Assembly (NCBI GenBank): GCA_021299835.1
Contig: JAJTER010000012.1
Span: 1 to 42,397 of the forward strand
Source: Saprospiraceae bacterium
Lineage (GTDB): Bacteria; Bacteroidota; Bacteroidia; Chitinophagales; Saprospiraceae
Length of the DNA stretch: 42,397 nt
Reading direction: 5' to 3'
Shown here: positions 2,534 through 16,262 of the stretch, one piece after another
Numbering within the stretch: the stretch's first letter is position 1
Layout: each line of letters begins with the position of its first letter
The notes under the pieces: generated by a model
What the model was told of the DNA's origin: nothing
The model's input: only the letters and a program-made list of their open reading frames with translations
The model's database searches: none
Position numbers and translations under genes: made by a program

Positions 2534-3091
2534 ATGATAGAAAATTCAATAGAAAATAACACCCATTTGCCACTGCTTCAATTTGCAACGCCCAAAGTAA
2601 TGGCAGCATCAGAAATTTATATACCGGAAGGCAAGATTTTTAAAAAAATATTCTACATTAAAAAAGGTATCCTGAGAAATTTTTTTGTGACGAAATCTGG
2701 TGAAGAAAAAACGATTTTTTTTCGTTGGGAAGGGCAAATAGTTGCTATACCCGAATGTATTTTTGATAATCAACCAACCCGACAGACCTGGCAAGCTTTG
2801 GAAGATTGCGAATTAATGGAAATTGATTTTGATATGGTAGAAAAATTAAGTGAAAATAATATTTCCTTAATTAAAACGAGATTGGGATTAGCCCAAAAAA
2901 TGTTACTGGAGGCTTTAAAACGGGTAGAAAGTTTTGTACTTGATAAGCCCGAGGAACGATACCAAAAACTGATTAGAGAAAAACCCGAAATAATTAAAAG
3001 AGTTGCAGATAAACATATTGCCTCTTTTATTGGCGTAACGCCTGTTTCACTTAGTCGTATCCGCAAGCGGTTAGCTTCGCAAAAAAAATAG
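2534..3091 (+). CDS. Crp/Fnr-family transcriptional regulator
   Basis: This 185-residue protein has a cyclic-nucleotide-binding-type beta-roll at about residues 20-115 (EGKIFKKIFYIKKGILRNFF...). An alpha helix linker follows, then a C-terminal helix-turn-helix (ADKHIASFIGVTPVSLSRIRKRL). This layout is typical of the short Crp-like regulators common in Bacteroidota, many of which do not bind cAMP. It is the first intact gene before a tight operon of exported proteins (3168-5869) and may control it. It is in frame with the tail of the kinase remnant, so its present leader was formed by a rearrangement. No clear promoter of its own is visible. The effector is unknown. Confidence 0.85.
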   Translation: MIENSIENNTHLPLLQFATPKVMAASEIYIPEGKIFKKIFYIKKGILRNFFVTKSGEEKTIFFRWEGQIVAIPECIFDNQPTRQTWQALEDCELMEIDFDMVEKLSENNISLIKTRLGLAQKMLLEALKRVESFVLDKPEERYQKLIREKPEIIKRVADKHIASFIGVTPVSLSRIRKRLASQKK

Positions 3092-12181: not shown

Positions 12182-13240
12182 TCAGGACGGTAGGTTAGTT
12201 AATTTTTTAATGTCAAGAATGATGATTGTTCCTTCAGTGATATCAATGTAGCCGTCATTTTTAAACTCTGTTAACATTCTGATTACACTCTCTTTTGCCG
12301 TCCCAACAATACGTGCCAAATCCTCCCTCAGTACCTGAAACGATTTATTATCCTCCTTTTGGCTCAATAATATAAGCGCATCTGCTACTCTTTTCCTTAC
12401 CGAGTTATAAGCAAGATTCAATAATTGTTCTTCCTTCTCCGTGATATTATTCGCTAACATTTTAATCATTTGGGAAGAAACATCTCTATTGGCCTGAATA
12501 AGTGCCAAAAAATCATCTTTAGGAATAAGCACAATATCCGTATCTTCCATAGCTGCAGCTGTTTCTGCATGAGCAGTACTTTTTAGTAAATCGACATAAC
12601 CTAAAAAATCACCCTCTTTGAGTAGTTCAATAATATATTCTTTACCTTGATCATGCGTTTTAAAGGTTTTAACCTTGCCTGAACGAATGAAGTATAAAAA
12701 GCGAGGATTATCCCCTTCTTCAAAAATGATATCTCTTTTTTTAAAGTGTTTTACTTTTTTATCATTCGATAAATTTTTTAATGCTTCAAAACCTTTAGCT
12801 TCATTAATAAAGGCTCTCAAGCCATTTTCTGACCTATCAAAATCTTTCCTTAGTAATTTGGTCTTTCTAAGCCTTGTTTCGATGACAGATAATAATTCAT
12901 CTTTATAAAAAGGCTTGGTAACATAATCATCGGCGCCAAGATTCATGCCCCTTCTAAAGTCAGATCTTTCAGCTTTTGCCGTTAAAAAAACAAAAGGAAT
13001 ACCGGAGGTATCAGGCCTTTTACCTAAAATATTAAGTACACCGAACCCGTCTAATTTCGGCATCATGACATCGCATAAAATAAGATCAGGAGCTTGCGTT
13101 TGGGCTATTTCAACGCCTTTTAACCCATCTTCAGCTGCTAAGACACTAAAATTAGATAACTCAAGAATTTCAATCAGATTTTCTCTAACATCTTGGTTAT
13201 CTTCAATGACCAATATTTTAATGGATTGATTCGTTGACAT
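12182..13240 (-). CDS. Response regulator with receiver fused to a CRP/FNR DNA-binding module
   Basis: 352 residues. The receiver domain (about 7-125) is complete: acidic pocket E13/D14, phosphoacceptor D57 (LILCDVMMPK), T87 and K109 (VTKPF). It is followed by a cyclic-nucleotide-binding beta-roll (about 165-275, with IIFEEGDNPRFLYFIRSGKVK) and a CRP-type helix-turn-helix (REDLARIVGTAKESVIRMLTE). The recognition helix keeps the Glu and Arg used by CRP/FNR proteins to read their half-sites. It starts 11 nt after the kinase stop, so the two form an operon. It may act as a FixJ-FixK hybrid: phosphorylation would directly control a CRP-type activator. The beta-roll shows no Fe-S cysteines. Confidence 0.93.
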   Translation of the reverse strand: MSTNQSIKILVIEDNQDVRENLIEILELSNFSVLAAEDGLKGVEIAQTQAPDLILCDVMMPKLDGFGVLNILGKRPDTSGIPFVFLTAKAERSDFRRGMNLGADDYVTKPFYKDELLSVIETRLRKTKLLRKDFDRSENGLRAFINEAKGFEALKNLSNDKKVKHFKKRDIIFEEGDNPRFLYFIRSGKVKTFKTHDQGKEYIIELLKEGDFLGYVDLLKSTAHAETAAAMEDTDIVLIPKDDFLALIQANRDVSSQMIKMLANNITEKEEQLLNLAYNSVRKRVADALILLSQKEDNKSFQVLREDLARIVGTAKESVIRMLTEFKNDGYIDITEGTIIILDIKKLTNLPS

Positions 13241-13251
13241 ATCTTAATTTT

Positions 13252-14922
13252 TTAAATTAGTGAAATACGCGGCAATGAGATTTTAAAAAATGTACCTATA
13301 CCCAATTGACTTTCAAAATGAATGGAACCCTCCATCAGTTCCAAATACCTTTTAACAATGGTTAAACCCAGGCCTGTTCCTTGAATATTCTCCACATTGT
13401 GGGCTCTGAAAAATCGGGTAAACAAGTGTTCCTGCTCTTCCGATGGGATACCAATTCCTTCATCCCGAATAGTAAAATACAGCCATTTTTCATCCATATA
13501 AAAGTCAAAATAGATAGACTTATCTTGTTCTGAATATTTAATGGCATTTGAAAATAAGTTGAGTAAAATATTTTTGAGTAATTTATTATCTAAAAATAAA
13601 ACGGTATGTAGATTATCCTTGGGTGAAATAACTTTTTGTCCTGGCTTAAGAATAGGCAGAATATCCTCTAATAAATCATTACAAAAATCATTGAATATAA
13701 ATTCAACAGGTTGCGATAAAACTTTACCTTCTTCGAGTTTACTCAATGAAAGGAAATCATTAAGAATACTAGTTAAATTATTTACTGCGGAACGGATTCT
13801 AACAATATGTTTCTCTCTTTTTTGATCTTGTCCTCCGTCATTATAAGCTTCTATAAGTTCAGCTGAGGAGAGAATCGTACTTAAAGGTGTTCTGAATTCA
13901 TGAGAAGCCATAGAAACGAATCGAGATTTTAAATGATTCAATTCCTTCTCTCTTTCATACGCTTTCCTAAGGGCCTTTTCCTTTTCACGGAGGGCATCTT
14001 CGGCACTTTTTCTCTCCTGGATTTCAAATTCCAGCTTTTTATTTATATTCAGCAGTTGGTTAATCGCGGCAGCTAATTCCTCTGTACGTCTTGAAACCCG
14101 CTTTTCCAATTCCGTATTCATGCTCAGAATCCTCTGTTCTGCTTCCCTTAGATCGGAAATATCGATACCTGAACAAATCAAACCAATGACGTCACCGTTT
14201 GAGCCTGTCAATAAGCTATTTTTCCAAGCATATTGTTTGACCTCTCCATTTACATTTATAGCTGCAGTTTCAAAAGAATCCAGCAAAAGAATATTTCCCG
14301 ACATCATCTCCACCAGAGCCAATTGAAGTGGTACAGTTTCAGCAGGAGGAAGTATGAGACTAAACCAATACTGGGTAATGACATCCTCGTGTTTTAAACC
14401 CACGAAGGATAAACCCTTTTGATTAAGATTAATGATTTTGGTTTGGCGATCTAAAACCACATTAATCGTATTGGCTACATCGAAATACATTTCGATTTTT
14501 TCTTTAGCGGAAATTAGTTCCTTTTCAATTTGCTTTTGTTCTGTCAAATCGTGAACAATGCCCGTATAAAGTGATCTATCAGGCAAACGAACTTCGCTAA
14601 TACTCAGATAACAAGGGAATACGGTATTATTTTTTCTTTTTCCTTCTACTTCCCTTCCAATACCAATAATCTTTTTTTCCCCTGTTCTATGATAATTCTG
14701 AAGATACCCATCATGCTTTTCACTGTATCTCCCCGGCATTAACATATTGATATTTCTACCAATTAATTCATCTATATGATAACCAAATAGTTCTGACGCA
14801 GCATTATTAACCTTTAGAATTATACCAAGCTGATCAATAATAATGATACCATCTGTTGCGGTTTGAATAACCGCAGCAAGCTGAAGAGAAGCAATATCCT
14901 GATGGTCCATTTTATTTTCCAT
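13252..14922 (-). CDS. PAS histidine kinase with FixL-like first PAS domain
   Basis: 556 residues, no transmembrane helices, so a cytosolic sensor. PAS1 (about 15-130) has the FixL pattern MPGRYSEKHDGY...IIGIGREVEGKRK, including His70 at the haem-ligand position and Arg90 at the O2-gating position. PAS2 spans about 140-260. A coiled coil (about 262-330) leads to HisKA with phosphoacceptor H341 (SHEFRTPLS) and an HATPase with N459, DEGIG (487-491) and GTGLGL (515-520). It is complete and predicted active. The ATG at 14922 follows AAGGAT. Its partner is the REC-CRP gene 11 nt downstream. Haem binding is inferred: the same His occurs in some PAS domains without haem. Signal could be O2 or another diatomic gas. 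Confidence 0.92.
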   Translation of the reverse strand: MENKMDHQDIASLQLAAVIQTATDGIIIIDQLGIILKVNNAASELFGYHIDELIGRNINMLMPGRYSEKHDGYLQNYHRTGEKKIIGIGREVEGKRKNNTVFPCYLSISEVRLPDRSLYTGIVHDLTEQKQIEKELISAKEKIEMYFDVANTINVVLDRQTKIINLNQKGLSFVGLKHEDVITQYWFSLILPPAETVPLQLALVEMMSGNILLLDSFETAAINVNGEVKQYAWKNSLLTGSNGDVIGLICSGIDISDLREAEQRILSMNTELEKRVSRRTEELAAAINQLLNINKKLEFEIQERKSAEDALREKEKALRKAYEREKELNHLKSRFVSMASHEFRTPLSTILSSAELIEAYNDGGQDQKREKHIVRIRSAVNNLTSILNDFLSLSKLEEGKVLSQPVEFIFNDFCNDLLEDILPILKPGQKVISPKDNLHTVLFLDNKLLKNILLNLFSNAIKYSEQDKSIYFDFYMDEKWLYFTIRDEGIGIPSEEQEHLFTRFFRAHNVENIQGTGLGLTIVKRYLELMEGSIHFESQLGIGTFFKISLPRISLI

Positions 14923-14965
14923 AAATCCTTATAAAGAGCTAGATTTTCAAAAATCAGGGAGTCGA

Positions 14966-14979
14966 TTGATAAATATCAT
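14966..14979. promoter_or_regulatory. FNR-box-like palindrome in a divergent promoter region
   Basis: TTGATAAATATCAT matches the FNR consensus TTGAT-N4-ATCAA at nine of ten defined bases. It lies 44 nt before the kinase gene and 93 nt before the divergent thioredoxin-fold gene. The REC-CRP regulator encoded by this operon is the natural candidate to bind it, which would be autoregulation. Confidence 0.45.
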
Positions 14980-15071: not shown

Positions 15072-15368
15072 ATGCCAGCTATCCATAAAGTAAAGTTATT
15101 AGGTATCGGTGCATCCAAGGACAAAGCTTTGCGGGAGCTTGTTGATCAGGCTATGTCCGTTTTAAACATTCATTGGCCCATTGAGGAAATAAAAGATATA
15201 AATCTTCTTATTCATTATGGCATAACTGGAATTCCTGCTTTAATCATTGATGATAATGTAATATTTCAAGTCAATGTACCCTGCTATTCTGAATTGCTTC
15301 AGGTTTTTAAGGAATTCATCACAAAAGAAAATGAGCAAAAGCTTTACATTAGCAAAATCCCAAAATAG
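15072..15368 (+). CDS. Thioredoxin-fold small protein lacking the active-site cysteines
   Basis: 98 residues. The fold resembles the small redox-disulfide / glutaredoxin-like family: strand VKLLGIGA, helix, strand, and the cis-Pro loop in ITGIPALIIDDNVIF. In that family the first loop carries C-x-x-C; here the same place reads GIGASKDKA, with no Cys. The only Cys is in VNVPCYSEL near the end. So disulfide chemistry is unlikely and a binding or regulatory role is possible. The gene is divergent from the kinase operon, sharing the FNR-like site, and its last 20 nt overlap the convergent Usp gene. Confidence 0.7.
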   Translation: MPAIHKVKLLGIGASKDKALRELVDQAMSVLNIHWPIEEIKDINLLIHYGITGIPALIIDDNVIFQVNVPCYSELLQVFKEFITKENEQKLYISKIPK

Positions 15369-16143
15369 GTCTGTCTATCTGAAAGGTAATCTGTTTGCTA
15401 ACACTTTTATGCAATAAATCACCTATAAATCCTCTTGTTGGCAGATAAAGTGCTAAAATAGCTGGTTCATTGGCCTTCAAAAACTGAAAAATACCATCGA
15501 CAACCTCCTCATTTGAAATCTGATGAATCTGCCCTAATCCTTCAAAACTAGTTTTACTCGAGCTTACCGAATGATTATCATCATTTGGCTTTACTACATG
15601 AATAAACTCAATTTGAGTTCGTAGATAGGTAGAAAAATCTTTTAATTTTACCAAAACGGTATCTTCGCCCTCTTCAAAATTAGTGGCATAAATCATTTTA
15701 AACCATTTGTTGAAAGTAGCTTCCTTTGGAATTACCAAAACGGGACAAGGCGAATGCCTTAACACATGAGTAGTAATACTCCCCAGCCATTTCTCCAATC
15801 TGTTGCGTTCCCCTTGGGTGGCCATGATGATTAAATCATAACTCTCTGCTAATTTATCAATTTCATAACTTATATCTATACCATATTGCAAGCCCGATTG
15901 CCCCAAAAGACCTTGAGGAATATCTTTTACAAAATGCGACATTTGTACTTCCAGACCCTCGCGCTTTTCTTTTATCATCTCCTCCAAATAGATGGGAGGT
16001 AAATTGGCAGCATCTACCGAAGCCAACTGATACACCGTCCAAACGTCAATAACAGCACCAAATTCCTTAGCAAAATCAACAGCATATCGAAGCGCGTGCT
16101 GAGAAACTTCCGAGAAATCGGTAGGGAAAAGTATTTTCTTCAT
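15349..16143 (-). CDS. Universal stress protein with two Usp domains
   Basis: 264 residues with tandem Usp folds. Domain 1 (about 1-140) opens with KKILFPTDFSEVSQHALRYA and keeps the nucleotide-site end GS-ITTHVLRHSPCPVLVIPK, but the first Gly loop reads TQGERNR, so ATP binding is uncertain. Domain 2 (about 148-264) is more diverged and ends DRPILGFC. Usp proteins help survival under starvation or low oxygen. Neighbouring FixL-like kinase and REC-CRP genes suggest it is part of their regulon. It starts at the ATG at 16143; an inverted repeat lies 55 nt upstream. The gene at 15072 overlaps its 3' end. Confidence 0.9.
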   Translation of the reverse strand: MKKILFPTDFSEVSQHALRYAVDFAKEFGAVIDVWTVYQLASVDAANLPPIYLEEMIKEKREGLEVQMSHFVKDIPQGLLGQSGLQYGIDISYEIDKLAESYDLIIMATQGERNRLEKWLGSITTHVLRHSPCPVLVIPKEATFNKWFKMIYATNFEEGEDTVLVKLKDFSTYLRTQIEFIHVVKPNDDNHSVSSSKTSFEGLGQIHQISNEEVVDGIFQFLKANEPAILALYLPTRGFIGDLLHKSVSKQITFQIDRPILGFC

Positions 16144-16197: not shown

Positions 16198-16218
16198 TGT
16201 CATGGAAATTAAATGACA
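16198..16218. promoter_or_regulatory. Inverted repeat TGTCAT-N9-ATGACA upstream of the Usp gene
   Basis: Two perfect 6-bp half-sites (16198-16203 and 16213-16218) separated by 9 nt, 55 nt upstream of the Usp start. The symmetry suits a dimeric regulator. It is short enough to occur by chance and does not match the FNR-like site at 14966. Confidence 0.3.
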
Positions 16219-16262
16219 AAAATCACCCTGAATAAGTAATAAATATTTTATGGATACTATTT

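Follow-up and report, generated by a model that had tools for sequence, protein, structure and literature searches.

The gene pair and its distribution

The stretch of DNA analysed here (the window) covers positions 1-42,397 of contig JAJTER010000012.1 from Saprospiraceae bacterium, assembly GCA_021299835.1, and our subject is a pair of genes on its minus strand, which encode a sensor histidine kinase and a response regulator with a receiver domain fused to a CRP-type DNA-binding module (REC-CRP). The kinase gene (13252-14922, 556 residues; Pfam PAS, PAS_4, HisKA and HATPase_c) is followed in tandem, after 11 nt, by the REC-CRP gene (12182-13240, 352 residues; Pfam Response_reg 4e-28, cNMP_binding 3e-23 and HTH_Crp_2 6e-14). 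A first-pass annotation had described a FixL-like kinase adjoining a receiver-CRP fusion, and both genes, with their domains and the conservation of the pair, bear this out. In the kinase, a domain resembling the FixL haem domain (PAS1, residues 14-136, 14515-14883) precedes an extra PAS domain (PAS2, residues 154-259, 14146-14463), which is present in only part of the orthologs and missing from many. In REC-CRP the receiver (residues 9-120, 12881-13216) is followed by a cNMP-fold (residues 164-251) and a Crp-type helix-turn-helix (residues 283-349), together at 12194-12751. Upstream of the operon, at 14966-14979, lies a predicted operator palindrome, TTGATAAATATCAT in the plus reading and ATGATATTTATCAA on the minus strand, with a score of 14.7 by the matrix described below. 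It is 43 nt from the kinase start codon, one less than first annotated.

REC-CRP matches are found at E<=1e-60 in 112 of 150 sampled genomes of the family and, at 1e-45 with five candidates scored per genome, in 56 of 395 genomes of the phylum, spread over nine families. The loci compared comprise 79 regions from family genomes, 13 further ones (L038-L049 and L052) and the window, 93 altogether (L195, a 2-base dummy, is excluded), and dropping the duplicates L040, L041, L045 and L048 leaves 89 REC-CRP loci. In 73 of these the gene immediately upstream, in the same orientation, encodes a kinase. The closest named record is a Bacteroidota metagenome-assembled genome (L038) with a 96% identical REC-CRP; the records that follow are mostly labelled Saprospiraceae. 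The comparison supports the gene pair and its conserved residues, and as far as sequences can tell, the kinase and REC-CRP form a two-gene switch that is conserved among Saprospiraceae and in bacteria related to them.

The sensor kinase

The H-box histidine of the kinase is His341. The largest mean Kyte-Doolittle value over 19 residues is 1.52 in the kinase and 1.31 in REC-CRP, neither protein being strongly hydrophobic anywhere, and for this reason the kinase is probably cytoplasmic. A search of PDB sequences aligns PAS1 residues 14-135 without gaps to the haem domain of Bradyrhizobium FixL (BjFixL) at E 8e-28; FixL haem domains lead the ranking, followed by the haem sensor DosP (5e-13), with LOV photoreceptors appearing from 9e-9. 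The second-best match to PAS1 in its own genome has an E value of only 6e-4. An AlphaFold2 model of PAS1 (12 sequences, mean pLDDT, the predicted local distance difference test, 81.8) retrieves FixL chains at ranks 1-20 in a fold search of the PDB and then E. coli DOS, with TM-scores, normalised by query length, of up to 0.89.

His70 and Arg90, the residues on which the first annotation had based its FixL assignment, align to FixL His200 and Arg220, which we take to be the proximal haem ligand and the O2-contacting arginine in FixL numbering. Among 74 PAS1 copies from family loci the histidine is kept in 73, the arginine in 70, and the pocket residues Ile215 and Leu236 in 66 and 68, respectively. 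In terms of residues only, PAS1 has the proximal histidine and O2-contacting arginine of a FixL-type PAS domain. The pattern alone is weak evidence, because it also aligns in 16 divergent PAS domains of kinases from other families of the phylum (histidine in 16/16, arginine in 12/16), and we rejected it as a haem signature by itself. The divergent PAS domain of locus L331 matches haem PAS chains exclusively in the PDB (14/14), and a closer PAS domain, from family f3 (L339), matches FixL at 1e-36. Against the NCBIfam model of rhizobial FixL (NF041777) the kinase scores 150.6 bits, far from the cut-off of 850, and by sequence it is FixL-like, not a match to the rhizobial FixL model. On the alignment and the predicted fold, PAS1 probably carries haem and binds O2.

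The REC-CRP regulator

The receiver has the residues expected of a phosphoacceptor domain: Asp14, Asp57 and Lys109 are invariant among the 89 sequences and position 87 is Thr or Ser. A HisKA/HATPase kinase adjoining a receiver with these Asp and Lys catalytic residues is the composition of a two-component system. In the recognition helix (KESVIR in the window protein) Glu317 and Arg321 are invariant, and Lys316 and Ile320 are kept in 83/89 and 82/89. The residues that we presume to contact cyclic AMP (cAMP) in CRP, Glu72 and Arg82, are replaced by Tyr and His in the window protein, and Tyr occupies these positions in 61/89 and 74/89 orthologs. The window protein has a single cysteine, residue 56, within the receiver; its CRP part is free of cysteine, as in 51 of the 89 orthologs, while the remaining ones have 1-4. 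Since the cAMP contacts are replaced and the CRP part of the window protein lacks cysteine, control by cAMP or by an iron-sulphur cluster of the FNR type is unlikely, and the receiver is likely to be the input instead.

FixJ is a receiver with a LuxR/GerE-type output domain, and FixK and FixK2 are not known to have a receiver domain. The output of REC-CRP consists of a cNMP-fold and HTH_Crp_2, and a Pfam search found no match to GerE. With FixK-type proteins it shares the CRP/FNR fold with its helix-turn-helix and the absence of the FNR-type cysteine cluster; it differs from them by the N-terminal receiver with conserved Asp57 and Lys109. Judged on its domains, the regulator belongs with neither FixJ nor FixK. 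For the 60 matches listed out of 335 in the PDB, each best-matching stretch covers one half of the protein only.

The predicted operator and its tandem arrangement

The operator was analysed in 85 promoters, 69 before kinase genes and 16 before REC-CRP alone, the near-identical loci L038, L118 and L194 and the cut locus L046 having been dropped as well. Dyads of the form ATGAC-N4-GTCAT, TGAC-N4-GTCA and TGAT-N4-ATCA have the highest counts, and the footprint of the orthologs has the consensus RTGAYN4RTCAY, for which the refined matrix gives RTGAYWWWWRTCAY. Its first base is A at a frequency of 0.58, G at 0.23 and T at 0.10, and the site of the window has T on one side. The plain FNR box was rejected as the operator, as TTGAT-N4-ATCAA ranks far lower than the RTGAY dyads in these promoters, and sequence comparison does not find the TTGA box of the FixK type in the footprint. 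In the window, TTGATN4ATCAA with at most one mismatch occurs 7 times against 4.48 expected, a count reached by 17 of 100 shuffles. The palindrome described at first as FNR-box-like is significant as part of the ortholog footprint and not as a plain FNR box.

The matrix scores at least 10 in 61 of the 85 operon promoters as compared to 1.8% of first-order shuffles, a figure which alone is optimistic because the matrix was trained on those same promoters. A common operator at its own promoter is consistent with the direct autoregulation proposed earlier, be it positive or negative. In whole genomes RTGAYWWWWRTCAY exceeds its reversed pattern by 1486:951 where REC-CRP is present and 379:342 where it is absent (Mann-Whitney p 0.004), and the enrichment is greatest, at 596:268, among the 41 genomes whose orthologs are the closest.

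The sites are frequently paired at a strictly defined distance. Taking promoters whose strongest site reaches a score of 11 or more, we find a further site of score 4 or higher at 22 bp in 34 and at 23 bp in 5 of the 61 operon promoters; for ccoS/ccoN, with 65 promoters, the corresponding numbers are 38 and 10. Chance would give about 0.003 per promoter for 21-23 bp. Exact palindrome pairs, counted in the 240 loci that were fetched independently of the tandem pattern, show the same preference, with 93 pairs at 22 bp, 15 at 23 bp and at most 2 at any other distance between 13 and 80; the reversed pattern gives one pair in total. Across the 150 family genomes the exact tandem pattern occurs 442 times against 3 for its reversed control, and it is present in 95 of the 112 genomes with REC-CRP as compared to 9 of the 38 without (p 9e-12). 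The phylum sample contains 133 such sites against 1 for the control, in 37/56 genomes with REC-CRP and 13/339 without, and outside the family the figures are 32/50 and 13/339 (p 9e-24). Distinct tandem sites in the loci examined are intergenic in 116 of 118 cases by a simple open reading frame call. These comparisons support, at the level of sequence, the operator, its tandem spacing and the tracking of operator with regulator across genomes. In the window itself a degenerate second predicted operator, TGATTTTTGAAA on the minus strand (14945-14956), lies 22 bp from the first and agrees with 6 of 8 defined positions; the pair corresponds to the tandem pattern with two mismatches at C74:14945-14978. 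The whole own genome contains 16 tandem sites with up to two mismatches against 5 for the control.

The own genome also contains 23 copies of TTGATN4ATCAA and 3 of the reversed control. This excess hints at a second kind of site, of the classical FNR type, and for this reason an FNR-type factor may act there as well. A further short Crp/Fnr-like regulator gene is seen, by eye in the translation, near the left end of the window (2534-3091, plus strand).

Candidate targets

Upstream of the kinase operon the window has a second predicted operator (16213-16226; minus-strand reading GTGATTTTTGTCAT, matrix score 18.8), which lies 69 nt before a universal stress protein (Usp) gene (15349-16143, minus strand; Pfam Usp 1e-22), a probable target. 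Elsewhere in the same genome, a scan of 20 site-bearing stretches led to contig C34, where GTGACTTTTGTCAC lies 48 nt before a heavy-metal P-type ATPase gene, judged ccoI-like from its position and broken by frame changes in the assembly, and ATGATAAATATCAT lies before ccoS and ccoN. The ccoS product exceeds its NCBIfam cut-off; the piece of ccoN, cut by the contig end, matches at 3e-115, below the whole-protein cut-off. The ccoI-like gene extends over several reading frames (L229:2563-4844), and assembly error and real decay are indistinguishable here. Many other sites in this genome fall inside genes and are probably due to chance. On contig C16 (L228/L388) a near-tandem site with one mismatch is found 57 nt before the gene of a secreted protein, YceI-like by eye.

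The first annotation had suggested a search for the site upstream of terminal oxidase genes, and for the cbb3 oxidase such sites are found. As an independent test, a matrix trained on operon promoters only was applied with a threshold of at least 10: among genomes that have REC-CRP, 63 of 72 show a site before ccoS/ccoN and 23 of 38 before ccoI, as compared to 4% and 2.5% of shuffles. These numbers refer to ccoN regions fetched from 80 of 88 matching genomes (G008, G022, G024, G041, G122, G129, G132 and G142 are left out), several of them shortened by a contig end (to 182 bases in G138); ccoI was located in 38 of the 72 genomes that have REC-CRP and in two of the eight that lack it. Among those eight, defined by the absence of a REC-CRP match at 1e-60, a site is present in four (G047, G128, G038 and G027), while G011, G053, G077 and G084 have neither a site nor a full-length REC-CRP match. 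G084, with neither REC-CRP nor operator at ccoN, encodes on contig C25, about 3 kb before ccoN, a CRP-only protein that shares 36% identity with the CRP part of REC-CRP, a possible replacement regulator. Over the 150 genomes REC-CRP and ccoN occur together in 80, REC-CRP only in 32, ccoN only in 8 and neither in 30 (Fisher p 6e-8); in 20 of the 80 they lie within 20 kb on one contig.

Thirty loci were fetched by the tandem pattern, 23 of them holding a tandem site not contained in other loci, and 30 of 32 listed flanking proteins were scanned. The flanks of these 23 include Usp in 6, a CBS-domain protein in 2 and a multihaem cytochrome c in 2, with single cases of HSP20, the NiFe hydrogenase small subunit with HypA, a di-haem peroxidase, a P-type ATPase, the CMD family and an MBL-fold protein; several of the 30 proteins scanned have no family match. 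Across these genomes the sequence data support the ccoS/ccoN, ccoI and Usp genes as candidate targets.

Divergent from the kinase gene, with a common upstream region, is the gene of a thioredoxin-fold protein without CxxC (15072-15368, plus strand; Pfam Thioredoxin_3), a possible target. It is convergent with the Usp gene, which it overlaps by 20 nt, and its product scores 50.2 bits against the NCBIfam MTH895/ArsE model, below the cut-off of 62. Similar sequences are found in 33 of 86 REC-CRP loci, and in L042-L044 they lie inside a longer Usp gene.

Proposed mechanism and alternatives

We consider it likely that the pair is a low-oxygen two-component switch, in which a kinase with a haem-type PAS domain controls REC-CRP and, through it, promoters with RTGAYN4RTCAY sites, including those of the cbb3 oxidase. 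Loss of O2 from the haem of PAS1 would trigger autophosphorylation of the kinase at His341, and the phosphate would be passed to Asp57 of the receiver. Phosphorylated REC-CRP would then bind the RTGAYN4RTCAY palindromes as CRP-type dimers, probably as two cooperating dimers where two sites are centred 22 bp, that is two helical turns, apart. The regulated set, which we expect to be activated rather than repressed, would comprise the operon itself, ccoI, ccoS-ccoN, universal stress proteins and further genes of micro-oxic or anoxic life.

Several observations weigh against this picture. No kinase is found directly upstream in 16 of the 89 REC-CRP loci; six of these have a similar kinase core elsewhere in the fetched region. 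For the phylum sample, a same-strand kinase core is found at 24 of 28 loci, yet PAS1 is mostly divergent: five of the 28 loci, each from family f3, have a PAS1 that is 48-50% alike, in 16 the value is 27-35%, and 7 give no match. Scores below 10 are found for 24 of the 85 operon promoters, and 17 of the 112 family genomes with REC-CRP lack an exact tandem site; conversely, such sites are carried by the 9 of 38 family genomes and the 13 of 339 in the phylum sample that have no REC-CRP match. Four of the nine were re-examined: G047 has an interrupted REC-CRP, G038 and G128 have fragments of the CRP part, and G027 has none, only receivers and weak CRP-like matches. The genus of the window is itself a poor example, with no exact tandem site in any of three genomes, a degenerate second half-pair at the window's own promoter and only 4 of 13 inspected two-mismatch tandem sites (of 16 in total) intergenic in the own genome. 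A fixed spacing to the Bacteroidota -7 element (TAnnTTTG), looked for around the position typical of class II activators, was not found; the element is near the expected place in 3 of 123 promoters, as compared to a shuffled mean of 0.7 and maximum of 6. Finally, the sampled genomes are kin and not independent, and because of this relatedness the p values overstate independence. Six of 64 ccoS/ccoN promoters have the -7 element at +51 from the centre of the primary site, which is a lead only.

What could the kinase sense, if not oxygen? The pair might regulate cbb3 and Usp genes through these very sites while its kinase binds no haem or responds to another signal, such as nitric oxide, carbon monoxide or redox state. 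PAS domains with haem are able to bind several different gases, the His/Arg pattern extends to the more divergent PAS domains, and the sensor domains vary between families while receiver and output stay. We nevertheless find this unlikely, as the closest solved relatives of PAS1 are the FixL oxygen sensors, the O2-contacting arginine and the pocket Ile and Leu are mostly kept, even the divergent domain of L331 matches haem PAS chains only, and the candidate targets are low-oxygen genes. That the locus is an ordinary conserved two-component system with a coincidental resemblance to FixL and a coincidental palindrome is very improbable. Chance can account for the FNR-like palindrome of the window taken by itself, and the score against the rhizobial FixL model is far below the cut-off, but coincidence would hardly produce the operon footprint, the sites at ccoS/ccoN and the tracking of tandem sites with REC-CRP both in the family and outside it.

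A different question is whether REC-CRP is the protein that binds. The operators could belong to a separate FNR/CRP regulator of cbb3 and of the kinase operon, with REC-CRP binding elsewhere. Other CRP-like proteins exist in the family genomes, some genomes have tandem sites in the absence of a REC-CRP match, and the whole CRP/FNR superfamily has this same spacing within its palindromes. In the part of PMC7888657 available, it is common to FixK and FNR-type boxes. We regard this assignment as quite improbable, since tandem sites follow REC-CRP in the family and in the phylum (tracking is not proof of binding), single-site enrichment peaks with the closest orthologs, and the sites stand before the REC-CRP operon itself.

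Relation to known systems and significance

The first annotation spoke of a condensed FixLJ-FixK pathway. The wiring is indeed, by analogy, like that of FixL-FixJ-FixK with its last two steps in one protein, while the name does not carry over to the regulator, and operator, receiver output and tandem layout differ. In Bradyrhizobium diazoefficiens phosphorylated FixJ induces fixK2, and FixK2 binds TTGA/C-N6-T/GCAA and controls genes including Hsp20, universal stress protein and MBL-fold genes, as given in the available part of PMC9104804; Usp, HSP20 and MBL-fold genes likewise flank tandem sites here. Both systems have a FixL-type kinase at the head and a CRP-family protein, here a predicted one, at the promoters, with cbb3 genes as targets there and as candidate targets here. 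Mycobacterial DosS/DosT-DosR is also similar, in that haem kinases and a single response regulator exert direct control over Usp, HSP20 and CBS-type genes, and differs by its GAF haem domain and LuxR-type output. The hFixL-FxkR-FixK pathway of Rhizobium leguminosarum resembles the predicted switch in its oxygen-sensing kinase, its fixNOQP target and the clustering of oxygen genes, but has three steps with a separate receiver protein, FxkR binding a K-box and FixK a TTGAT-N4-ATCAA anaerobox; the two anaeroboxes of the fnrN promoter, at -34 and -2, are by these positions not 22 bp apart (PMC7888657, in the part available). NmpRSTU of Myxococcus xanthus similarly connects a haem-dependent kinase, with a protoglobin sensor, to cbb3 and an associated P-type ATPase (PMC11841059, seen in part), and differs also by its multi-component relay and NtrC-like regulator. 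For Saprospiraceae and other metagenome-assembled genomes PMC8510549 predicts carbon sensing by CRP/FNR homologs near MalR, and its available portion names no receiver fusion. No earlier description of the kinase/REC-CRP switch was found in the literature searched, which covered few subscription journals.

More tentatively, and with somewhat less than even confidence, we suggest that REC-CRP could be a master low-oxygen regulator of many Bacteroidota, switched by phosphorylation and not by a ligand or an iron-sulphur cluster, and that the 22-bp tandem could mark a phylum-wide hypoxia regulon. Two dimers would be loaded two turns apart because the phosphorylated receivers of neighbouring dimers touch. 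The strict spacing makes this a sharp prediction about the assembly of REC-CRP on DNA. The system would bring the logic leading from FixL to cbb3 about with two proteins instead of three, by means of a CRP-family regulator with a receiver domain as its input, and for a group of environmental Bacteroidota it provides a circuit of low-oxygen control that can be tested, its operator and candidate targets included. If the suggestion is true, the hypoxia regulon across the phylum would be readable from genomes through the 22-bp tandem operator.

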